From assembly GCA_937860165.1 (NCBI GenBank), contig CALMBE010000012.1:1-12245 (forward strand): a stretch of DNA of 12,245 nucleotides. Direction: 5' to 3'. Below are positions 1 to 12,216 of this stretch, in pieces (within the stretch, counting starts at the first letter, position 1; each line of letters begins with the position of its first letter). The position numbers and the translations under genes are program-made. The notes under the pieces were generated by a model. It was not told the DNA's origin. It worked only from the letters and a program-made list of their open reading frames with translations, and did no database searches. The stretch comes from an uncultured Planctomycetaceae bacterium (lineage in GTDB: Bacteria > Planctomycetota > Planctomycetia > Pirellulales > Lacipirellulaceae).

Positions 1-3000
1 CGGCGATGTCGTCTTCCAGCGTAAAATTGGATAGATACCCATTGAAATACAAGGGTGACTTACCCTGTTTGCGTATTGCGATGGTATGCCGACCAGCCGC
101 AAGTTCCTCGCCCGTCAGGACGAGTTTATTCTCGAACGTGAAGAGATTCTCCTTGGTAATCGCTACCGATTTTCGCTGCTGACCGTCGATCCACACCTCC
201 ACTTTAAGGTCCGGCTCGGCTTCGCCTGTGGCTTTCAAATATCCGGCAAAGGCTTCTACCACCAGGGCAGTATCGCGAGTGCTATTCCAAGAAGAAGCGT
301 GCTTGCGGTTGTTGAGAAGGTATTTTACCAACCGCGACGCAACCGGGTCTTGAGGATCATTCGCTACCAGCAATTTGAGAAAATAAGCGTGGGCCTCGAA
401 CTCGCTGCCGTACCAGTACCACCAACCGCTCGCAGGAAGTTCGAGCCACGCGGTTTGATTTTCGTCGTCCTGCCGCACGTATTGCCGCAAATTGCGGAGT
501 ACCATGGCCAGCTTCTCCGTTTCCTTTTGAACTTCTAGACCAATCCCAAAAGTTGCCAGACTGGACACAGCAAGCTTCGTGCGATCACGGTAAAGGAAGT
601 CACACATCTTGCCCATGGTGCTGCTGGTAGGTTGATCACCCCCCCTTTCCGCGAGAACCATGTAGACCAAGGCGTCGAGATCGTCAGCAGCAGATTTCGA
701 GGGTTGCTGGCTGCGTTCTTTAACGGGTAACTGTTGGTCGGCAAGGTATCGTTCGATGAGTCGCACATGTTCAGTTTGATAACTCTCTAGCCAACTAAGA
801 CCTCGCTCCAATACGCCCGGCACCATTGCGACTCCATTCTCTTGGGCAACCAAAAGCCCATGAACTACGACCGCCGTTGTGTGGGGGGTGCTCTGCTCGC
901 CGTAGCCGCTAAACCATCCCCAACCACCATCGGCTAGCTGCATTTCCGTCAGTCGATTGACTCCGGCTTTAACCACGGTATTGAGTTCCGCATCATCGAA
1001 AACAGGGTTGCGTTCGAACCGTTGCCAACCAGTACCACGTATGGGATCGTCGCCGATCTCTTGGGCGTTGAGATTCGTCCGTTTGTCGCGGATCGCCGCT
1101 AAATCAATCCCCATCTTCCGCAGTGTTTGCTGGGTAATAACCGCCGGCAGAAACCGATTGAGCGTCTGCTCGGTGCAACCGTAAGGGTAATCAATCAAGT
1201 AAGGGAGCGAATCGACCATCGCACCTGCTAGAGTAGGGGTGTAGCGAACTTCCAGCCTTGTCTGTTCGGCACGCCTTTCGGCTGGGACGGCAATGGTGAA
1301 CTCGCTGGAAGTCTCCTCAGGAGCAATCACTCCCGAGGTGGAATCGGTCTTAAGCATCCCGTGAACCAACGCGGGAAAACTCATTTGCATGGCGTCGGAC
1401 TCTTCGTCGGTGCGGGCCGACATGCGAATCGTCGCTGTCCCCTGGCCGATTACTTTAACCCGCCAATCAACGCGTTTCTCACCGTTGGAAGCGATTGTTA
1501 CTAACTGCTCCAAATCTGTCGGACCACGAAGCGTGTTTCCTTCCAATTCCAATCGCACTCGGACCTCTTTGTCGCTGGGCAAATAATTGTGGACATTGGC
1601 CGAAAGGACCACCTCATCGCGTTCGACGAAGAATCGCGGAGATTGCAGCCGCACGATGAGATTCTTTCGCGTGACTACCTCGGCCGATCCCTCACCAACC
1701 TGAGTGCCATGCCCCATACCCCAGGCTTTGATCTTCCAACTTGTGAGATTCTCGGGCATGGGGAAACGAACCTCGGCCAGCCCTTCCGCATTGGTTTCCA
1801 GGGTTCCCTTCCAGAAAGCGGTGTCGGCAAAGTTTTGGCGAATCACGGGCTCTACCAAGGCAGCGCCCCCAGTGCTATTGGACCGAGAACCATCAAGTAC
1901 CGCTAGTTTTTCCCCAGCAAAGTCTCCGCCCTCGGCCATCGCGGCGGCCATGGGAGCGTTCTCAGCGAATCGAGCGCCAAGCATGAGTCGTCGATCACCG
2001 CTGCGATCGCGACTGAACCATTCCTTGTTCTTGTTACTGGGAATCTCATCAACCACCGAATCTCCAAAAATCCCTAGTAGCCCCATCCCCGGCTTGTTGG
2101 GTTCATCGAGCACCGAGGAATACTCTTCGAGGTTGGTTTCTCCCTGAGACTGATGACTCCGCCTCCACTTCCAGAAATACTCGCGAATGTCGATAACATT
2201 GGAACCTCCCGAGATATACTCCAACGATTTGTCGTAGACAGCCAGCGCTAGCGAACCAAGAAACGGTTTTCCGGACAAGTCAGAAAGTTTTAGGACAACG
2301 GTGGCTTCTTGTCCTGGGAGATATGCGACCGTGTTGGGAACCACCTCGAGATTGAGTACACGCTGCTGGGGCGGAACAAATAGTTCACGGACTAAAGAGT
2401 GAACCCGACCACCGTGAACCGTGACTGCCTCAACAAAAAAGTTAGGAGTGTCACGCGGTAGGACGTCGACTTCGACAACCGTACTTTTCCCCTTGAGTGT
2501 CACCAATTGAGGAGGTTGATAGACCCCATTGGCAGGACGCACAAATAAAAGCACAACGGAATTAAGCTGATTTGTATTAATTTGTAACGCGGCTTTTTCA
2601 CTAGGCTGATAATCACGGCGATCGGGGATGACCTCCAAGTCGTTGAACTGAAAAGGCGCGCCGTCAAAGGTGGGCCCGGCAATCGTAAACACATGCCCGC
2701 CCTCTTCGGTGTGATTATTGCCATCGTTTAGTTCATAAGCCAGCCGGTATTGGCCTGGATTGGCTGCTTTAATCGGCAACTCTGCTTGGCCAGTTTCCCC
2801 CAGGTCGAGTTCCCATTTTCCCGCCTCGGTTTCTACCGGTTTACCGTCTTCGTAAACAATTTGGAGAAGTCGCAGGATGCCTTTGCCAGTCACCGGTTTC
2901 CCAGCGAGTGTTCGGGCGGCGGTGCCCACCGTCACGGTGTCGTTCATCCGATAGTGCCCCCGATCAGTCCAAACCACGACCTGAAACGGCTTCCTCGCTA

Positions 3001-5707
3001 CCAGCACTTGTCCCGTGCCGACAATCGTACGACGCGATGCATCGACGACTTCCACTTGGATTTCGTAGCTGTGATCTTCATCGGGATGAAACTGTTTTGC
3101 CGCGGCGGTATCAAACTCAATGTCAACTGTTCCTTCGGGACCGATGGCAATTTCTTGTTCAACCACGAGTTCGGGTGGGGTAGGTGCGCGCCAGAACCAC
3201 CAGGGATACGGAGCAATACATCCCCAGCGAGACCAACCTGGATACCAGGAGTACTCTTGCGAGAACCAACCATAGCCCGCCCCATAAAGCCAATCCCAAG
3301 GCGATGGGGGATACCAATGCTGTTGGTGACTGGTGCGCAAGACTTTGTAATGGAGACGTGCCTCAGTCACAGGCGATCCGAAATAATACCGGGCCGAGAT
3401 CTTCGCGTTGACTTTGTCACCCAAAATCACGGGGGACTTGGGGGCTTCGACGGTCACTTCAAATTCAGGTTTCTTATATTCTTCAACGCGAAATGTTCCC
3501 CCTCCATGATTAACCACATTGATTTGGTATTGCCCCAGGATCGCTCCCTCGGGAACCTGCCATTCGCCCGTCAATCCTCCGTAAAGGTCGGACGTAAGTT
3601 GGGTGCTGTAGGCTTTTTCGTTCTGGGGATCACGAATTTCAATCTGAAACGTCTTCGCCGCAAACTGCGATTCGTCGGCCATGTCATACTGAGCATGAGC
3701 GACCCAAAACTTGTAATACAGCTTCTGCTCAGGGCGATAAACAGGACGGTCGGTGATCGAGAATACCTTTACTTGTTGGTAGATTTGATCGTAATAGTCC
3801 CCGCTCCAGATATTGCGGAAACCGAGATACGCAAACCGCCCTTGGGGCGTCGTGGCAACTGCCAACCATTGATGCCGACGGTTCGTTTCATCGGCATCGA
3901 TGGTCGTCAGGCCACTTTCGTCGGTTAGCTCCGCAAAGTTCTTGGTTTCGATCCGAAAGCGATTGCCTTCGAGCTGCTCTTGCCAGTAGCCGAAGAATTC
4001 TACATTGCACTGCGGAATTGGCTGGCCCGTAGCCGCATCGGCGACGTAATACAACGATTTCCCTTCGACTGGTTTTTTTACGATCGCGGTATCGTTGAGC
4101 CAGAGCACGATCCTTGTCGAATTTCCTCCGATCACTTTGGAAGTCACCAAATAGGCCCCAGGCTTCTGCAGGGGTGTGGTCACGGTCGTGCGACGATCAA
4201 AGTGATTGTCCAGCGGATCGAGATCCAAACTCCAGCGAGCCACTTCGGCTCCCACATATTTGTGCTGCTCTTTTTGGACCAAACGATATCCAAGGCTCTC
4301 GATCTGGAGTTGATTCCAATCGAGTTTTTCTGGGTTTTGCTTGAGATATGTCTTTACATCGTCGAGCAGTTGTTGCACCTCAATCCGACGGGCCACGAAT
4401 TCCACTCGCTTGGCGTTGCGATATCGAAATTCGATCGTCGCGCCCATGCCTGCGGGTTGAGAAGCGACCGGCTCGAACCGCCCCCACATTCCCGTAATTT
4501 GCGCAAGCTGGTCTCGTGCAACTTGCTGACTTCCGCCGCGCTCGGAAAGTTGCTTCCAGTAGTGGGCTGCCCTCGCATATTGGCGACGATTCTCGAACAG
4601 ATTAGCCAGCTCCGTGGTCGCCTGCTCCCACAGACCCAGCCCTTCTCCCTCCTGTGCGTTGAGTTGCTCGGCAGCAACTTGTTCGTAGAGTTTGATGAAA
4701 TTTTGTTCGTCTGGAAGCTCGAAACGGCGAATTCCCGTGGCGAGTCGGGCAATCGTTTCCTGATCTCCCAGGGTATGCAACTCAAAAGTTCCCGACTGCT
4801 GCTCGGCATCAGTTTCCGAATGCTGACGGCCGAACCACCAACCGTAGTCGGCCAAAGTTTGCTCTCCAAACTGAGATCTCAGGAATCCTGCGCGAATCCG
4901 CGATACCTGTGAGTGCCGTTCAGGCTGCCAATCAACTAGTTCCTGCAATATCCACCGCCAACGCTCCCCATCGTTCTGGGATTTCTCCCACGATACGGGA
5001 ATTGAGTAAAAAACTGGATTCCCCGCGGCATCCACGGGTGCGCCGATCCATTGTCGGCCGTAGTTCCAGCCTTCCTCATACTCGGGCAAGACCGCGAGAT
5101 CAGTAAGTTCCTGTAAACGCCAAGCCCCATGCGTTTGAACCGACCACATCACACTCGCAAAACCTTCGAGCAACTGGTAAGCGTCGTCGGACTTCAAGTC
5201 AACTGGGACTGACTTCTCGGAAAGAATCTCATGTGCTTGCAAGAAGACTTGCAGTGCGCGAACTCGATCGCGCCCGAGCGCATTGGCCACTCGACCCTGT
5301 CCGCCCCTTTGTGGCCCCCGCTGAAACTCACCAGCGACAATCGTGCCGAAGTGCCCCAGATTCGATATTTCGCGGGCAACCGCTGCTAACACACGCCAGT
5401 TTTTGGCGTGCCGTTTAACGGTTGACTCGAGAACAGCATCCATTTCCTGTTCGCGGTTCAATTGCCGATAGCACTCGACCGACTTTTGAATCGCCTGAAT
5501 CAAGTCTTTAGATTCCGCTTGAGGTTCGGCGACGATTTCCTGAAAAGCGCTCAGGGCTTCTTGATAGTTACCTTGGGTAAACAGTTCCGTCGCACGATTC
5601 AGCGGGGTATCGAGTTCGGCGCCCACCGTAGCGGCGGCGCAGACCAAGACACAGAGGCTGCCGAAAACCGCGCGGCACAGCATTTCAAACCATTGGGGAG
5701 GAATCAT
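1..5707 (-). CDS. Alpha-2-macroglobulin family protein with thioester motif, secreted; C-terminus off the left edge
   Basis: The minus-strand frame is open from ATG 5707 to the window edge, giving at least 1902 residues with no stop or frameshift. Residues 1-30 look like a type I signal peptide (hydrophobic stretch about 13-27, cleavage near V-G-A/E31). No Cys follows a proper lipobox, so it is probably not a lipoprotein, unlike E. coli YfhM. Residues about 35-130 are helical and TPR-like. An MG2-type motif with Y-R-P lies near 652-660, the family motif EEYKKPEFEV is at 742-751, and R-x-N-F-A-D-T-A-F-W near 1290 marks the A2M domain. A PRFFVE-like segment is near 1357-1362. The thioester motif is GCTEQ, with Cys1511 and Gln1514, followed by a thioester-domain repeat DGGWGWFSG near 1593. 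An aromatic-rich insert occupies 794-846. The family traps proteases by covalent thioester attachment; a periplasmic or envelope-defence role is inferred. In many bacteria it pairs with penicillin-binding protein 1C, but no such gene is visible here. Confidence 0.95.
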   Translation of the reverse strand, partial: MIPPQWFEMLCRAVFGSLCVLVCAAATVGAELDTPLNRATELFTQGNYQEALSAFQEIVAEPQAESKDLIQAIQKSVECYRQLNREQEMDAVLESTVKRHAKNWRVLAAVAREISNLGHFGTIVAGEFQRGPQRGGQGRVANALGRDRVRALQVFLQAHEILSEKSVPVDLKSDDAYQLLEGFASVMWSVQTHGAWRLQELTDLAVLPEYEEGWNYGRQWIGAPVDAAGNPVFYSIPVSWEKSQNDGERWRWILQELVDWQPERHSQVSRIRAGFLRSQFGEQTLADYGWWFGRQHSETDAEQQSGTFELHTLGDQETIARLATGIRRFELPDEQNFIKLYEQVAAEQLNAQEGEGLGLWEQATTELANLFENRRQYARAAHYWKQLSERGGSQQVARDQLAQITGMWGRFEPVASQPAGMGATIEFRYRNAKRVEFVARRIEVQQLLDDVKTYLKQNPEKLDWNQLQIESLGYRLVQKEQHKYVGAEVARWSLDLDPLDNHFDRRTTVTTPLQKPGAYLVTSKVIGGNSTRIVLWLNDTAIVKKPVEGKSLYYVADAATGQPIPQCNVEFFGYWQEQLEGNRFRIETKNFAELTDESGLTTIDADETNRRHQWLAVATTPQGRFAYLGFRNIWSGDYYDQIYQQVKVFSITDRPVYRPEQKLYYKFWVAHAQYDMADESQFAAKTFQIEIRDPQNEKAYSTQLTSDLYGGLTGEWQVPEGAILGQYQINVVNHGGGTFRVEEYKKPEFEVTVEAPKSPVILGDKVNAKISARYYFGSPVTEARLHYKVLRTSHQQHWYPPSPWDWLYGAGYGWFSQEYSWYPGWSRWGCIAPYPWWFWRAPTPPELVVEQEIAIGPEGTVDIEFDTAAAKQFHPDEDHSYEIQVEVVDASRRTIVGTGQVLVARKPFQVVVWTDRGHYRMNDTVTVGTAARTLAGKPVTGKGILRLLQIVYEDGKPVETEAGKWELDLGETGQAELPIKAANPGQYRLAYELNDGNNHTEEGGHVFTIAGPTFDGAPFQFNDLEVIPDRRDYQPSEKAALQINTNQLNSVVLLFVRPANGVYQPPQLVTLKGKSTVVEVDVLPRDTPNFFVEAVTVHGGRVHSLVRELFVPPQQRVLNLEVVPNTVAYLPGQEATVVLKLSDLSGKPFLGSLALAVYDKSLEYISGGSNVIDIREYFWKWRRSHQSQGETNLEEYSSVLDEPNKPGMGLLGIFGDSVVDEIPSNKNKEWFSRDRSGDRRLMLGARFAENAPMAAAMAEGGDFAGEKLAVLDGSRSNSTGGAALVEPVIRQNFADTAFWKGTLETNAEGLAEVRFPMPENLTSWKIKAWGMGHGTQVGEGSAEVVTRKNLIVRLQSPRFFVERDEVVLSANVHNYLPSDKEVRVRLELEGNTLRGPTDLEQLVTIASNGEKRVDWRVKVIGQGTATIRMSARTDEESDAMQMSFPALVHGMLKTDSTSGVIAPEETSSEFTIAVPAERRAEQTRLEVRYTPTLAGAMVDSLPYLIDYPYGCTEQTLNRFLPAVITQQTLRKMGIDLAAIRDKRTNLNAQEIGDDPIRGTGWQRFERNPVFDDAELNTVVKAGVNRLTEMQLADGGWGWFSGYGEQSTPHTTAVVVHGLLVAQENGVAMVPGVLERGLSWLESYQTEHVRLIERYLADQQLPVKERSQQPSKSAADDLDALVYMVLAERGGDQPTSSTMGKMCDFLYRDRTKLAVSSLATFGIGLEVQKETEKLAMVLRNLRQYVRQDDENQTAWLELPASGWWYWYGSEFEAHAYFLKLLVANDPQDPVASRLVKYLLNNRKHASSWNSTRDTALVVEAFAGYLKATGEAEPDLKVEVWIDGQQRKSVAITKENLFTFENKLVLTGEELAAGRHTIAIRKQGKSPLYFNGYLSNFTLEDDIA

Positions 5708-7458: not shown

Positions 7459-7682
7459 AGCGACCTTTGCCGCAGTGAGTTCCACGGACGAGCGGTGGAT
7501 TTCTGCCTAATATAGCTGCACGTTCCCGCGTGGCAAATTAGTGCCGTGCCTAATGGCACGCCCAGAGCGAATTGGGTATCATGGCGTCGGCCCGTGGCGG
7601 ACATCGATTCAACAGTATATCGAGCCTGCCGATTGGTGAGTCCAACTGCCAGTTTCTCTTACTCCAATTCACGATTACACTC
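7459..7682. other. Intergenic region before the nucleoside-salvage cluster
   Basis: These 224 bp separate the sugar transferase from deoC and probably contain the cluster promoter. A TAATAT box (7508-7513) could serve as a -10, but no well-spaced -35 is apparent. The stretch 7581-7682 is open in the deoC frame from an ATG at 7581, but the encoded 34 residues do not resemble any DeoC N-terminus. It is therefore treated as untranslated leader. Confidence 0.5.
7545..7560. repeat. Short perfect hairpin cgtgcc-taat-ggcacg
   Basis: A 6-bp perfect stem with a 4-base loop lies 87 bp after the sugar transferase stop and 122 bp before the deoC start. No T-run follows on the plus strand, so it is not a classical intrinsic terminator. 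It may be a regulatory hairpin in the deoC leader or a remnant of a dispersed palindrome. Confidence 0.4.
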
Positions 7683-8405
7683 ATGCCTTCCTCCGTCGTT
7701 TCATTGATAGATCACGCCGTATTGAGTCCCACACAGACTGATATCGATCTCCGCGATGCGTGCGAGATGTGTATCGAAGTCGGCACTGCAAGTGTGTGCG
7801 TGAAACCCTCGATGGTGGTACTCGCCAGCGAACTGCTGGCAGGTTCGGCGGTGGTCCCCAGTACGGTGATTGGCTTTCCGCACGGGGGAACGACGACAGG
7901 GGCAAAAGTTCGCGAAACTGAGATTGCCTGCCGCGAAGGGGCCCGAGAGGTCGACATGGTGGTTAATCTCGGGCGTGTGATGCAACAAGATTGGGCGTAC
8001 GTCGAGTCGGACATTCGCTCCGTAATCGATGTTGCCCGCGCTGCCGGGGTGATCACCAAAGTGATTTTTGAAACGGGGCTATTGCCAAACGACGGCTTGA
8101 AAATTCGTTTATGCGAGATTTGCGAATCTGCCGGTGCCGCTTTTGTTAAAACTAGTACGGGTTTTGGCTACCTAAAAGCAGCCGACGGCACCTTGCAGGC
8201 CACGGGAGCCACGGAGCACGACATCCAACTGATGCGGGCCCATGTCAGTGAGCGCGTGCAAGTGAAAGCATCCGGAGGCATTCGCAATTACGCCGACGCC
8301 CTGCGATTTGTCGAACTGGGTGCCACTCGCCTAGGAACCAGCGGCACCCTGGCGATCACCCATGGCGAACAAGGCCAACACGCGGAAAACACCGGCGCTT
8401 ATTAA
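7683..8405 (+). CDS. deoC: Deoxyribose-phosphate aldolase DeoC
   Basis: This class I aldolase splits 2-deoxyribose-5-phosphate into glyceraldehyde-3-phosphate and acetaldehyde, the last step of deoxynucleoside catabolism in the cytoplasm. The 240-residue product begins MPSSVVSLIDHAVL, matching the family's usual start (IDHTxL type). Key residues are visible: the Schiff-base lysine Lys156 in AAFVKTSTGFG, the second lysine Lys195 in VKASGGIRN, Asp91 in VDMVVN, and the phosphate-binding tail GTSGT (218-222). In-frame starts at 7572 (TTG) and 7581 (ATG) would add over 30 residues with no family similarity, so 7683 is preferred even though no ribosome site is seen before any of them. It is separated by 197 bp from the phosphorylase genes that supply its pathway, so it may be in the same transcript or have its own promoter. 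Confidence 0.95.
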   Translation: MPSSVVSLIDHAVLSPTQTDIDLRDACEMCIEVGTASVCVKPSMVVLASELLAGSAVVPSTVIGFPHGGTTTGAKVRETEIACREGAREVDMVVNLGRVMQQDWAYVESDIRSVIDVARAAGVITKVIFETGLLPNDGLKIRLCEICESAGAAFVKTSTGFGYLKAADGTLQATGATEHDIQLMRAHVSERVQVKASGGIRNYADALRFVELGATRLGTSGTLAITHGEQGQHAENTGAY

Positions 8406-8602: not shown

Positions 8603-9436
8603 ATGTTAGACCTCTACGATCAAATACAATCAGCCGCCGGTGCGATTCGCAAACAGTGGGATCACACTCCGCGCGCTGGTATCATTCTCGGCACTGGACT
8701 AGGGGGTTTCGCGGACCGGATCGAAACGTCGGTGGCCATTGATTACGAAGACATTCCCCACTTCCCACGCTCCACGGCAGTGAGTCATCGTGGCAGATTC
8801 GTGTGCGGGAAACTCGAAGGAGTCCCCGTAGTGGCCATGGAAGGAAGATTCCACCAGTACGAGGGCTACCCGCTCAAGCAAATCACACTCCCGGTACGTG
8901 TGATGAAAGCACTGGGAGCGGAATTATTAATCGTCACTCATGCCGTCGGAGGGATGAACCCACTGTATGTACCTGGCGATGTCATGATTATCGACGACCA
9001 AATCAATCTCATGGGTGATAATCCACTAGTCGGGATCAACGACGATCGCCTCGGTCCACGATTTCCCGACATGAGTGCTCCCTACACGCCAGAACTGATT
9101 GCCGTGGGACAGGAAATCGCGCGCTTGCAAAACTTTCCCGTGCAGCGCGGCGTGATGGTGGCAGTCACGGGTCCGAATCTCGAAACCCGCGCCGAGTATC
9201 GTTTTCTGCGGCTCATCGGAGCCGATGTCGTCGGAATGTCGACGGTTCCAGAAGTAATCGTCGCAGTCCACAGCGGGATGCGGGTATTGGGCTTGTCGGT
9301 GGTGACCGATATGTGTCTCCCCGACTCGCTCAAACCGGCGAATGTGGAAGAAATCATCGCCGTGGCCAACTCGGCTGAACCCAAGTTGCGGGCATTGGTG
9401 ACGGGAATCTTGGCACACGAACGAGCACGGGGATAA
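8603..9436 (+). CDS. Purine nucleoside phosphorylase paralog 1, with altered specificity residues
   Basis: This 277-residue enzyme is of the trimeric (human PNP/PunA) type and should cleave a purine nucleoside with phosphate to the base and pentose-1-phosphate. Family marks are the phosphate loop GTGLGG (30-35), GRFHQYEGYP (81-90), RFPDMS (153-158), GPNLETRAEYR (190-200) with Glu194, and GMSTVPEV (211-218). Compared with human PNP, Thr31 replaces Ser33, His113 replaces Asn115, Asp236 replaces the base-selecting Asn243, and Val248 replaces His257, which contacts the ribose 5'-OH. Thr, Asp and Val at the phosphate loop, base and 5' sites match those of methylthioadenosine phosphorylase, but Glu194 is PNP-like. 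Adenosine or a 5'-modified nucleoside is a plausible substrate (inference). ATG 8603 is chosen over a TTG at 8594. The stop is 6 bp before the second phosphorylase, indicating co-transcription. Confidence 0.92.
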   Translation: MLDLYDQIQSAAGAIRKQWDHTPRAGIILGTGLGGFADRIETSVAIDYEDIPHFPRSTAVSHRGRFVCGKLEGVPVVAMEGRFHQYEGYPLKQITLPVRVMKALGAELLIVTHAVGGMNPLYVPGDVMIIDDQINLMGDNPLVGINDDRLGPRFPDMSAPYTPELIAVGQEIARLQNFPVQRGVMVAVTGPNLETRAEYRFLRLIGADVVGMSTVPEVIVAVHSGMRVLGLSVVTDMCLPDSLKPANVEEIIAVANSAEPKLRALVTGILAHERARG

Positions 9437-9442
9437 TCGGCC

Positions 9443-10273
9443 ATGCGGGATTGGGCAAACAGAATATCGGAATCCGCTATCGCCGTGCGAAAGCATTGGG
9501 ACACATCGCCACGGGTGGGAATCGTTCTTGGTTCGGGACTGGGTGAACTTGCCACTCAAATCTCTGTCGAGAAAGTGATCGACTACGCCACGATCCCACA
9601 TTTCCCTAAGCCAACCGCCATGGGCCACAAGGGCCAACTCGTTTGCGGGCAACTTGAGGATGTTCCAGTCGTTGCCTTCCAGGGGCGTTTTCACCTCTAC
9701 GAAGGTTATACCGCTCAGCAAGCAGCTATCCCAGCGCGGCTGAGCCGCGCGCTGGGGGCTGATACGCTCATAGTTTCCAATGCCGCAGGAGGGTTGAACC
9801 CGCATTTTGCTGTTGGCGATGTCATGTTGATCGACGACCAGATCAATTTGATGTTTGCCAACCCCTTGATCGGAATCAACGACGACCAGCTTGGACCCCG
9901 ATTTCCCGACATGTCCTCCCCCTATGATCGAGAGTTGCTCGACACAGCCACACAAGTCGCACGTCGTGCGGATTTCAATGTCCATTGCGGGGTCTATGTG
10001 GCGATGCGCGGTCCCACTTACGAGACTCGGGCCGAGTATCGCATGGCCCGTCGGATCGGTGGCGATGCCGTCGGAATGTCGACCGTCCCCGAAGTAATTG
10101 CCGCCCGGCACGCGGGAATGCGAGTACTCGGATTGTCCACGATCACCAATGTTGGATCCCCCGACGCCCCCTGCGGAACCTCAGGACACGATGTGATCGC
10201 TGCCGCTGCTACCGCCGCCGGCAAGCTATCGAAAATCGTGCGCGGTGTCTTGGCAACTCTCGGAACCGTGTAA
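9443..10273 (+). CDS. punA: Purine nucleoside phosphorylase paralog 2, canonical 6-oxopurine type
   Basis: This 276-residue trimeric-type purine nucleoside phosphorylase should act on inosine, guanosine and their deoxy forms. The complete active-site set is visible: Ser31 in LGSGLG, His62 in GHKGQ, GRFHLYEGY (81-89), SNAAGGLNP (112-120), Phe154 in RFPDMS, Glu194 in PTYETRAEYR, Ser213 in GMSTVPE, Asn236 in STITN and His249 in SGHDV. These correspond to human Ser33, His64, His86/Tyr88, Asn115, Phe159, Glu201, Ser220, Asn243 and His257. It aligns without gaps to paralog 1 through residue 236, with about 140 identities by hand count (about 59%). The C-terminal part differs more and has a one-residue length shift. 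It starts 6 bp after paralog 1 and ends 13 bp before deoA, so the three are probably one operon. The symbol punA is by family; the name varies among genomes. Confidence 0.94.
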   Translation: MRDWANRISESAIAVRKHWDTSPRVGIVLGSGLGELATQISVEKVIDYATIPHFPKPTAMGHKGQLVCGQLEDVPVVAFQGRFHLYEGYTAQQAAIPARLSRALGADTLIVSNAAGGLNPHFAVGDVMLIDDQINLMFANPLIGINDDQLGPRFPDMSSPYDRELLDTATQVARRADFNVHCGVYVAMRGPTYETRAEYRMARRIGGDAVGMSTVPEVIAARHAGMRVLGLSTITNVGSPDAPCGTSGHDVIAAAATAAGKLSKIVRGVLATLGTV

Positions 10274-10286: not shown

Positions 10287-11570
10287 ATGAATCCTGTCTG
10301 GATCATTGCCAAGAAACGCGATGGCGAAGAATTGTCTTCGCAGGATATCGGCACATTCATCTCGGGATATGCCGCGGGCAAAATCCCCGATTATCAAATG
10401 TCGGCCCTGGCAATGGCGATTTATCTTCGCGGCATGTCGACCGCCGAGATTGCCGCGCTCACCGATCACATGCTCGCCTCGGGGGCCCGATTTACGTGGC
10501 CTTCGGGAGGAACGCCCAAAGTCGACAAACATTCGACCGGTGGCATCGGCGATAAAGTGTCGCTCCCCCTCGCCCCCATGCTCGCTTGTTGCGGCCTTCA
10601 GGTGCCGATGATATCCGGTCGTGGCCTGGGCGCCACGGGGGGAACGCTTGACAAGCTCGAAGCCATCCCCGGCTTTCGCACGAATCTATCCCTGGACGAA
10701 ATGCGTGCCGTCACCGAACGGGTCGGCTGTGTCATCAGCGGCGCCACTGCCGATCTGGTCCCTGCTGATCGCAAACTCTATGCCCTCCGCGACGTGACCG
10801 CCACGGTCCCTTCAATTCCGCTCATCACGGCGAGCATCATGAGCAAGAAACTCGCCGAGGGGCTCGAGGCCCTGGTACTCGATGTAAAATTCGGCAGCGG
10901 GGCCTTCATGAAAACTGCTGAATTGGCCCGTCAGTTGGCCCGCTCGATGGTCAACACCGGCCAGCGAATGAATGTGCCAACCACTGCCCTCCTGACCGAT
11001 ATGAACCAACCCTTAGGTCGGATGGCTGGCAATGCTGTCGAGGTTGATGAGTCAGTCGCCGCCCTCGAAGGCCGGGGGCCTGCCGATCTCATGGAAGTGA
11101 CGCTGGCCTTGGGTGCGGAACTGTTAGTTTCGACCCGCAAAGCCGAAACCGTCGAATCGGCCCGGCAGCAATTGCAGCAAACGATCGACTCCGGTGCGGC
11201 CCGCGAAAAATTCGCCGAGATGGTCGCCGCCCAGGGTGGCAATCTCGACGCCCCTCGATCGGTCGCCCCGGCCAGTGAAGTCAAGACGCACCAAGCAGGT
11301 TTTATTTCCAGGATGGATACCGAAAAACTTGGCCAAGCCGTGATCGCCATGCGAGGGGGCCGCAAACAACTGGGCGACCTGCTCGATCTGTCGACCGGTT
11401 TTGAAATGCTCGTGCGTTTGGGCGACCGAGTAGAAACAGGTCAGCCCCTTGCGAAACTCTTTGCCCCGGCGAATGTCGCCGAGGAAGGCCGCCAACTTTT
11501 GCTCGCGGCGATAGAAATCGCCGAAGAGTCACCTGTGCTTGGCCCGTTGATTCTCGAGCACGTCGGGTAA
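10287..11570 (+). CDS. deoA: Thymidine / pyrimidine-nucleoside phosphorylase
   Basis: This 427-residue enzyme is of the nucleoside phosphorylase family II (DeoA/Pdp). It converts thymidine, deoxyuridine or uridine plus phosphate to the base and pentose-1-phosphate. The N-terminal helical domain (about 1-65) is followed by the phosphate-binding loop KHSTGGIGDK (81-90), with His82. The family signature SGRGLGATGGTLDKLE occupies 110-125. Arg168 in ALRDVTATV, Ser183 in TASIMSKK and Lys187 match the pyrimidine-binding Arg171, Ser186 and Lys190 of the E. coli enzyme. The C-terminal alpha/beta domain (from about 330) ends normally at residue 427, close to the usual 430-440. It is the last gene of the salvage cluster and follows the second purine phosphorylase by 13 bp. 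Whether it is thymidine-specific (DeoA) or broad (Pdp) cannot be settled by eye. No terminator is seen in the 24 bp before the convergent toxin gene. Confidence 0.95.
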   Translation: MNPVWIIAKKRDGEELSSQDIGTFISGYAAGKIPDYQMSALAMAIYLRGMSTAEIAALTDHMLASGARFTWPSGGTPKVDKHSTGGIGDKVSLPLAPMLACCGLQVPMISGRGLGATGGTLDKLEAIPGFRTNLSLDEMRAVTERVGCVISGATADLVPADRKLYALRDVTATVPSIPLITASIMSKKLAEGLEALVLDVKFGSGAFMKTAELARQLARSMVNTGQRMNVPTTALLTDMNQPLGRMAGNAVEVDESVAALEGRGPADLMEVTLALGAELLVSTRKAETVESARQQLQQTIDSGAAREKFAEMVAAQGGNLDAPRSVAPASEVKTHQAGFISRMDTEKLGQAVIAMRGGRKQLGDLLDLSTGFEMLVRLGDRVETGQPLAKLFAPANVAEEGRQLLLAAIEIAEESPVLGPLILEHVG

Positions 11571-11594: not shown

Positions 11595-11891
11595 CTACAC
11601 TCTTTTCTTCCAATATCCAGGTCGACGCTTGACATGTGCAATCGCCACGACAGTAACGAGTGTGGTTTCACGAAAGTAAACAATCAGAAATGGGTATTTT
11701 TGCAGTCGGTAGTATTGGCACCCTGCAAAAGTCCTGGCAAACCGATCCGGTAATTGAAGGATTTTTTCAATCCCCACATCGACCTCAGATGCAAACCCTA
11801 TTGCGGCTGCGTGACTCCGTACAGAATACCAATCGAAGGCCTCGTTGAATTCTTCATGTGCTTCAGCAGAAAAAAAGATCTCAACTGCCAT
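11595..11891 (-). CDS. Type II toxin, RelE/ParE family
   Basis: This 98-residue basic protein has the RelE/ParE toxin layout: an N-terminal strand VEIFFSAEAHEEF, a helix-turn-helix pair around 14-46 (FNEAFDWY), and a C-terminal sheet with YYRLQKYPFLIVYFR (60-74) and VVAIAHVKRRPGYW (81-94). The closing HxxRRPGYW is typical of the ParE-like branch (PF05016). Members either cleave ribosome-bound mRNA or poison gyrase, and sequence alone does not say which applies here. An upstream in-frame start at 12017 would add 42 residues unlike any toxin N-terminus. ATG 11891 instead overlaps the antitoxin end by 11 bp, implying translational coupling. The gene ends 24 bp from the convergent deoA stop, so read-through antisense transcripts are possible. 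Confidence 0.9.
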   Translation of the reverse strand: MAVEIFFSAEAHEEFNEAFDWYSVRSHAAAIGFASEVDVGIEKILQLPDRFARTFAGCQYYRLQKYPFLIVYFRETTLVTVVAIAHVKRRPGYWKKRV

Positions 11892-12117
11892 AGCCGATCC
11901 GCTCAAGGGCTTCTTCTCGAATCTTTGACCAGGCAAGAGTCGGAGCAGTGCCTTGGACAACGTCGCCAACGCGCCGCAATAGCTCCTGTTCCCAATCGGC
12001 ATGAAGGGGCAATTCACTTTCTGGAGGAACCGAGTTCCATAAAGCCTCGATCAATCGCAATCGATCTTCCGGAGGAAGTTGTTCCGCGGCTCCCAGGATG
12101 GATTCATAATTTCTCAT
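11881..12117 (-). CDS. Type II antitoxin, putative addiction module component (Unstab_antitox type)
   Basis: This 78-residue acidic protein resembles the small addiction-module antitoxins of PF09720/TIGR02574. The recognisable core is the N-terminal segment ILGAAEQLPPEDRLRLIEAL (7-26) followed by WNSVPPES (27-34), and the C-terminal part 41-75 is a charged helix with W-x-x-E-L-x-R-R and a final EEALERIG. It should bind and neutralise the toxin encoded immediately downstream and probably repress their shared promoter, as usual for such pairs. ATG 12117 is preferred over the start at 12198 because GAGGA lies 6 bases before it and the homologous region begins there. The last codons overlap the toxin start (11881-11891). 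Confidence 0.9.
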   Translation of the reverse strand: MRNYESILGAAEQLPPEDRLRLIEALWNSVPPESELPLHADWEQELLRRVGDVVQGTAPTLAWSKIREEALERIGYGS

Positions 12118-12123
12118 ACTTAA

Positions 12124-12128
12124 TCCTC
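12124..12128 (-). promoter_or_regulatory. Ribosome binding site of the antitoxin
   Basis: Read on the minus strand, GAGGA stands 6 bases before ATG 12117. This supports the short 78-residue antitoxin over the longer in-frame version starting at 12198. Confidence 0.7.
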
Positions 12129-12216
12129 GGCTTTCGGTTCGACAATCACGATTTGACGAACTACAGTGAGCTAATCGGTGATCTAAGGGGTGACTCAAGA
12201 ATAACTTCCGTAGACT

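Follow-up and report, generated by a model that had tools for sequence, protein, structure and literature searches.

Low-mass purine nucleoside phosphorylases and the residues of the base site

Human purine nucleoside phosphorylase (PNP) provides the frame in which the two bacterial enzymes described here are read. We take Glu194, Asp236 and Val248 of the first of them (copy 1) to correspond to Glu201, Asn243 and His257 of the human protein, respectively; in PNP, the His at the position equivalent to 248 faces the 5′-hydroxyl. When Asn243 of human PNP is replaced by Asp, the efficiency with adenosine rises about 4,000-fold, as stated, with reference to other work, in PMC6128611, and the better-known prodrug enzyme derived from human PNP carries the double change Glu201Gln and Asn243Asp (PMC2799393). 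These human variants are engineered, whereas the Asp of copy 1 is natural. Schistosoma mansoni likewise has two low-mass PNP paralogs, PNP1 and PNP2, one of which has a widened specificity: SmPNP2 accepts cytidine, inosine and adenosine but, unlike copy 1, keeps its Asn (Asn245), the specificity having been changed by other means (PMC6128611). The trimeric PNP of Aneurinibacillus is reported to cleave adenosine weakly (PMC6983109).

A natural Asp is also found in PNP I of Planctopirus (Planctomyces) limnophila (PDB 4m1e), which is 58% identical to copy 1 over structurally aligned residues (rmsd 1.0) and shares its Leu/Glu/Asp set and the motif TDLCLPD, but has Leu as the hydrophobic residue at 248. 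A near-identical sequence in our sample (genome G206) is the single listed match to copy 1 there, so that no copy 2 was seen in that genome. Searches of open-access papers returned no substrate data for the 4m1e enzyme. The PNP of B. fragilis has the Asp of copy 1 but a His in the later motif, and its structure was determined with Immucillin H, an analogue of the 6-oxopurine class. In the Thermus thermophilus structure PDB 6tk9, which we take to be PNP I of that organism, the Asp is present, but Ala replaces the Glu and Glu stands at 248. T. thermophilus PNP I has been reported to act on 6-oxopurines only (PMC11430614). Judged by the Thermus and B. fragilis enzymes, the rule that Asp means adenosine is not absolute.

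Methylthioadenosine phosphorylase (MTAP, TIGR01694) belongs to the same superfamily. Its substrate, methylthioadenosine (MTA), is a by-product of polyamine synthesis, and mtnA encodes the next enzyme of methionine salvage after MTA phosphorylase. Like copy 1, MTAP combines Asp with V, I or L at two specificity positions; in all 11 planctomycete MTAPs that could be read ungapped at the motifs (12 were fetched), this pair is present and Ser replaces the Glu. That Ser, and a separate clade in the tree described below, set MTAP apart from copy 1; in the reading proposed here, both would carry out the same step before MtnA. Among open-access titles and abstract openings, none was found in which an Asp-type low-mass PNP is identified as an MTA phosphorylase.

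The tandem pair and its operon

The window, i.e., the whole stretch of 12,245 nucleotides that was analysed, from an uncultured member of the Lacipirellulaceae (the family, in what follows), contains two adjacent PNP genes (Table 1). The preliminary description had taken copies 1 and 2 for duplication paralogs that align without gaps at about 59% identity, and the computed value is 59.3% over residues 1–236, with no gaps. Both copies exceed the cut-offs of PRK08202 (363.5 bits for copy 1 and 357.4 bits for copy 2; cut-off 218) and TIGR01700 (312.6 and 323.7 bits; cut-off 293.35), and the PNP fold spans the full length, copy 1 having been modelled as a monomer. Neither copy reaches the cut-off of the MTAP model TIGR01694 (80 and 78.9 bits; cut-off 274.85) or of TIGR01699, the xanthosine phosphorylase XapA (222.3 and 212.6 bits; cut-off 370.9). 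The label of TIGR01700 is inosine and guanosine-specific; copy 2 has the Asn, and copy 1 is without it.

Table 1. Features of the window, with strand and the evidence for each
Feature	Positions	Strand	Evidence or conservation
Open reading frame (1902 residues) that continues past the end of the contig	2..5707	-	CTEQ-type thioester motif; resembles bacterial alpha-2-macroglobulin (by eye)
deoC, deoxyribose-phosphate aldolase	7572..8405	+	TIGR00126, 205.9 bits (cut-off 117.3)
PNP copy 1, Asp-type low-mass purine nucleoside phosphorylase	8603..9436	+	PRK08202, TIGR01700
Residue 113 codon, copy 1	8939..8941		Gln (30) or His (7) across 37 family copies 1
Glu194 codon, copy 1	9182..9184	+	Glu in 105/105 copy-1-like sequences
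Asp236 codon, copy 1	9308..9310	+	Invariant in 58-sequence alignment A1
Val248 codon, copy 1	9344..9346	+	V, I or L in 102/105 copy-1-like sequences
PNP copy 2, derived Asn-type paralog	9443..10273	+	PRK08202, TIGR01700; nested in Asp clade
Asn236 codon, copy 2	10148..10150	+	Asn in 38/38 family copy-2 sequences
deoA/pdp, pyrimidine-nucleoside/thymidine phosphorylase	10287..11570	+	PRK05820, 552.2 bits; TIGR02644, 524 bits
Addiction-module antitoxin and ParE-like toxin, overlapping frames	11595..12198	-	Antitoxin over the TIGR02574 cut-off; toxin slightly below its Pfam cut-off

The residues Glu194, Asp236 and Val248 attributed earlier to copy 1 are present in the sequence. Leu193, Glu194, Asp236 and Cys238 occur in all 37 full-length family copies 1, in which residue 248 is V (31), I (5) or T (1). 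A further 68 sequences from other families of the phylum complete a copy-1-like set of 105, defined by Asp236; these have Leu193, Glu194 and Asp236 in 68/68, Cys238 in 67/68 and I, V or L at 248 in 66/68. The exceptions at 248 in the whole set are T, A and M, one each. It had been asked whether the pair of Asp and a hydrophobic residue is conserved in one clade, and it is, Glu/Asp being found in 37/37 family and 68/68 other-family sequences. Copies 2 of the family have Tyr193, Glu194 and Asn236 in 38/38. Of the three residues assigned to copy 2, Glu194 and Asn236 are thus conserved among copies 2, whereas His249 is not, a His being present in the stretch after Asn236 in 25 of the 38. At the position of residue 113 of copy 1, the 68 other-family sequences have Asn, Ser, Gly, Ala or Cys; the Gln or His of the family (Table 1) marks one more change close to the base site, and it accompanies the tandem of this family.

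Together, deoC, the two PNP genes and the pyrimidine-nucleoside phosphorylase gene would form a nucleoside-cleaving operon. The last of these starts 13 bases past copy 2, and both of its model scores exceed the respective cut-offs; the called TTG start of deoC is probably too early, because the family match starts only at residue 43. Across six widely fetched family loci, deoC lies upstream of copy 1 in all six, the pyrimidine phosphorylase downstream of the PNP pair in five, AMP nucleosidase upstream in five and a deaminase-fold gene in four. The AMP nucleosidase of the window's genome, which passes PRK07115, is on a separate contig. A PADLOC scan of four proteins of the window gave no match.

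An old duplication and a return to Asn

The PNP pair is an old duplication that has been kept in the family. A match was found in 39 of the 43 family genomes searched, and the copies are adjacent on one strand in 36 of the 39; in the other three, the copies lie on different contigs at contig ends (two genomes) or only copy 1 was found (one genome). A second family of the order has two neighbouring copies in 5/5 sampled genomes.

The direction of change was read from a tree made by a quick method and with many weak forks, for which 120 rows were chosen and MTAP served as the root. The alignment before the tree held 175 sequences (172 from loci and three PDB chains), four of which were dropped for length, and the columns of the Asp/Asn trait itself were retained in the tree alignment. 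The Asp clade, including the copy-2 group, comprises 93 rows (SH-aLRT 99); a set of 49 rows unites the copy-2 group with the Asp sequences closest to it (SH-aLRT 98), and the copy-2 group itself comprises 24 rows from three families (SH-aLRT 95). Only two changes in the Asp/Asn column are needed among the non-MTAP rows. Since the copy-2 group is nested in a broad Asp clade, copy 2 returned from Asp to Asn; the form usual in planctomycetes combines Asp with a hydrophobic residue at 248, and it is from this form that copy 2 regained the Asn. On the same nesting, copy 1 was rejected as the derived copy. The observation of divergent tandem PNPs is therefore confirmed and its earlier interpretation partly supported: copy 1 as an enzyme for 6-aminopurine or 5′-modified nucleosides is still the best guess, whereas the view of it as a modified copy on a 6-oxopurine scaffold is not supported by the tree.

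The Asp type and MTAP in Planctomycetota

The phylum was sampled with 195 Planctomycetota genomes, all at least 90% complete except the window's own at 87%, and about 150 of the best matches to copy 1 were used. An Asp-type PNP was found in 83 of the 195 genomes and a true MTAP, over the TIGR01694 cut-off, in 80; no genome has both (0/195), the Asp-type counts holding among the matches listed. Six more genomes have near-cut-off, partial or split MTAP matches, and none of these has the Asp type. Counted by families (n = 60), 31 have the Asp type, 25 have MTAP (including the six near-cut-off or split matches), none has both and four have neither. A match to mtnA counted as present at E ≤ 0.001 (172/195; 169/195 over cut-off). 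Of the Asp-type genomes, 80 of 83 have such a match, as do 77 of 80 with MTAP, 4 of 6 with near-MTAP matches and 11 of 26 with neither. The split between Asp type and MTAP within the phylum follows families. Fisher p-values for these counts ignore kinship and are not relied on, and an independent-pairs test, circular because its rows were picked as Asp-type or MTAP, was left unused. For MtnA a tree of 62 rows was made, of which 57 come from the sample, two from the family of the window and three from other phyla. On the best tree the supplier switches at least 13 times, with three to four switches forced by well-supported branches; this tree of MtnA should not be read as a tree of the species.

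A single match to copy 1 was found in 38 of the 83 Asp-type genomes, among the matches listed; thus, the Asp type there may also have to serve 6-oxopurines. Within the window's family, 37 of 43 genomes have an mtnA over cut-off; none was seen in the window's own genome, an assembly 87% complete in 828 contigs. A gene resembling a thiamine-diphosphate decarboxylase (by eye) lies downstream of mtnA on the same strand in four of five family mtnA loci (L165, L166, L168 and L169), with none seen in L164. The PF01048 members of the family are copy 1, copy 2 and a third, AMP-nucleosidase-like protein, with one weaker extra member in 6 of 43 genomes. Four extra members were examined, and two, L219 (genome G011) and L218 (genome G034), are phosphorylase domains inside larger proteins that resemble conflict-system effectors by eye, one of them followed by a nucleotide-binding-loop region.

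Adenosine deaminase (PF00962) is over cut-off in none of the 43 family genomes, with one weak match. Across the phylum, however, it is present in 44 of 83 Asp-type genomes and in 47 of 86 MTAP or near-MTAP genomes, and it was dropped as a general discriminator; its absence bears on the window's family at most. Outside the family, the Asp-type gene stands in some of 68 loci near genes that look by eye like those of a protein kinase, isoleucyl-tRNA synthetase, YggS or PurN, from which no function follows, and no nucleoside or methionine operon was seen around it in the planctomycete loci read. One planctomycete locus, L364 (genome G126, positions 1732–5423), combines mtnA, an Asn-bearing MTAP homologue, an MTA-deaminase-like amidohydrolase and a hypoxanthine phosphoribosyltransferase. 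This operon looks like a methylthioinosine route, in which the Asn goes with the deaminated substrate; genome G126 also carries two Asp-type genes.

The Asp type in other phyla

Named genomes were scanned more widely, using an alignment headed by the Spirosoma chain. By record title, the best 80 loci belong to Bacteroidota, Gemmatimonadota, Ignavibacteria, Chlorobi, Kapabacteria, Balneolales, Hydrogenedentota, Omnitrophota and others, with a few Planctomycetota among them. All 80 are Glu/Asp; residue 248 is I, L, V, F or M in 65 and His in 15, mostly Bacteroidales. The Bacteroidales PNPs (L283, L300, L276 and similar ones) form a Glu/Asp/His subgroup with the motifs FETPAEY and TDLG...SHEE, which is intermediate between the Asp type and the classical set of residues; in the P. 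gingivalis chain, the Asp is replaced by Asn.

Forty-six of the genomes behind these loci, chosen for spread, were searched for MTAP and mtnA. MTAP was over cut-off in none of the 46, and mtnA was over cut-off in 23 and not in the other 23. On the same strand within the fetched flanks, mtnA accompanies the Asp-type gene in 4 of the best 80 loci, from two lineages: in three Chlorobiaceae it follows directly (27 bases apart in L239), and in an Atribacterium one short gene lies between the downstream mtnA and the Asp-type gene, which carries His at 248. Residue 248 does not track mtnA among the 46 genomes (2/7 with His vs. 21/39 with a hydrophobic residue); thus, it was dropped as a decisive mark, and the argument does not rest on it.

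Proposed function and alternative explanations

From what was computed, namely orthology, residue conservation, the order of changes on the tree, gene order, the exclusion of MTAP and the closeness of mtnA in other phyla, we infer, with slightly better than even confidence, that copy 1 is a 6-aminopurine phosphorylase, acting on adenosine and MTA, in the slot of MTAP, and that copy 2 serves inosine and guanosine. Copy 1 would represent the conserved Asp type of the trimeric PNP family, whose Glu194/Asp236 pocket and hydrophobic residue 248 may allow phosphorolysis of 6-aminopurine nucleosides, including MTA. Phosphate would attack C1′ of an adenosine-class nucleoside, Asp236 in the place of Asn243 could accept the 6-amino group, and the hydrophobic residue at 248 would stand in for the His that faces the 5′-hydroxyl. 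The predicted products are adenine and ribose-, deoxyribose- or methylthioribose-1-phosphate. Methylthioribose-1-phosphate would supply MtnA where an organism lacks a dedicated MTAP, while deoxyribose phosphate, after a mutase step, would feed DeoC. Copy 1 may thereby give a family that lacks adenosine deaminase access to adenosine or deoxyadenosine, and copy 2, the old duplicate changed from Asp to Asn and from Leu193 to Tyr, would serve the 6-oxopurine nucleosides. For this assignment speak the 0/195 overlap, the mtnA matches in 80 of the 83 Asp-type genomes, the 0/46 count of MTAP in the wider sample, the closeness of mtnA, the MTAP-like pair of Asp and a hydrophobic residue, the Asn243Asp effect in human PNP, and the family's lack of adenosine deaminase. 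Against it stand the Glu194 kept where MTAP has Ser, the 23 of 46 genomes without mtnA over cut-off, the failure of residue 248 to track mtnA there, the way the split follows families within the phylum, the 6-oxopurine ties of the Asp-bearing B. fragilis and Thermus PNPs, the 38 of 83 single-match genomes and the lack of a visible mtnA in the window's genome.

Several of these opposing points would fit a broad PNP for adenosine, deoxyadenosine and 6-oxopurines with no special role in MTA cleavage, the exclusion of MTAP being an inheritance of deep lineages. We regard this as rather unlikely. The retained Glu194, the genomes without mtnA over cut-off, those with no second listed match to copy 1, the setting of the gene outside any nucleoside or methionine operon in those planctomycete loci that were read beyond the family, and deoC in copy 1's own operon all agree with it. 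However, both types are spread across the phylum and yet never occur together in the 195 genomes, the supplier switches at least 13 times on the best MtnA tree (three to four times with good support), and mtnA is found close to the gene in Chlorobiaceae and in an Atribacterium. That exclusion also weighs against copy 1 being an ordinary inosine/guanosine PNP, as its NCBIfam label would have it, with Asp236 a neutral or orientation change. This is improbable in our judgement, given further the invariance of Asp236 in alignment A1, the Asn-type paralog retained alongside in 36 of 39 family genomes and the Asn243Asp effect in human PNP (PMC6128611), although copy 1 does exceed the TIGR01700 cut-off, the Asp-bearing B. 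fragilis enzyme was solved with Immucillin H, and Thermus 6tk9 has the Asp in an organism whose PNP I is described as 6-oxopurine only (PMC11430614).

MTA might instead be deaminated first, with copy 2, as the Asn type, cleaving methylthioinosine for MtnA and copy 1 uninvolved. Such an operon exists in one planctomycete (L364), and an amidohydrolase matching PRK09045 below cut-off is present in 41 of 43 family genomes, but the cut-off is reached in none of the 43, and the best match in the window's genome (L362) reaches 62.7 bits with the MTA/SAH deaminase model, whose cut-off is 779, and fits the aminofutalosine-deaminase family best, itself below cut-off. Moreover, the single listed match in 38 of the 83 Asp-type genomes means that no Asn-type partner was seen there, and the exclusion of MTAP holds nonetheless. 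We therefore consider this route very improbable.

Beyond the window, and with somewhat less than even confidence, the Asp-type clade may provide the missing MTA phosphorylase for the salvage of methionine or 5′-deoxynucleosides, both in many Planctomycetota and in those members of other phyla that carry mtnA (Gemmatimonadota, Chlorobi, Ignavibacteria, Balneolales, Hydrogenedentota, Omnitrophota and others), with repeated exchanges between it and MTAP. In the lineage of the window, a duplication would have followed, after which one of the copies reverted to 6-oxopurines. If this is true, many proteins labelled inosine/guanosine-specific PNP would be wrongly described, and a gap in methionine salvage would be closed for several phyla. 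The natural reversal from Asp to Asn would then offer a ready paralog pair for testing the switch between 6-amino- and 6-oxopurines. Low-mass PNPs that accept adenosine are useful as biocatalysts, too.
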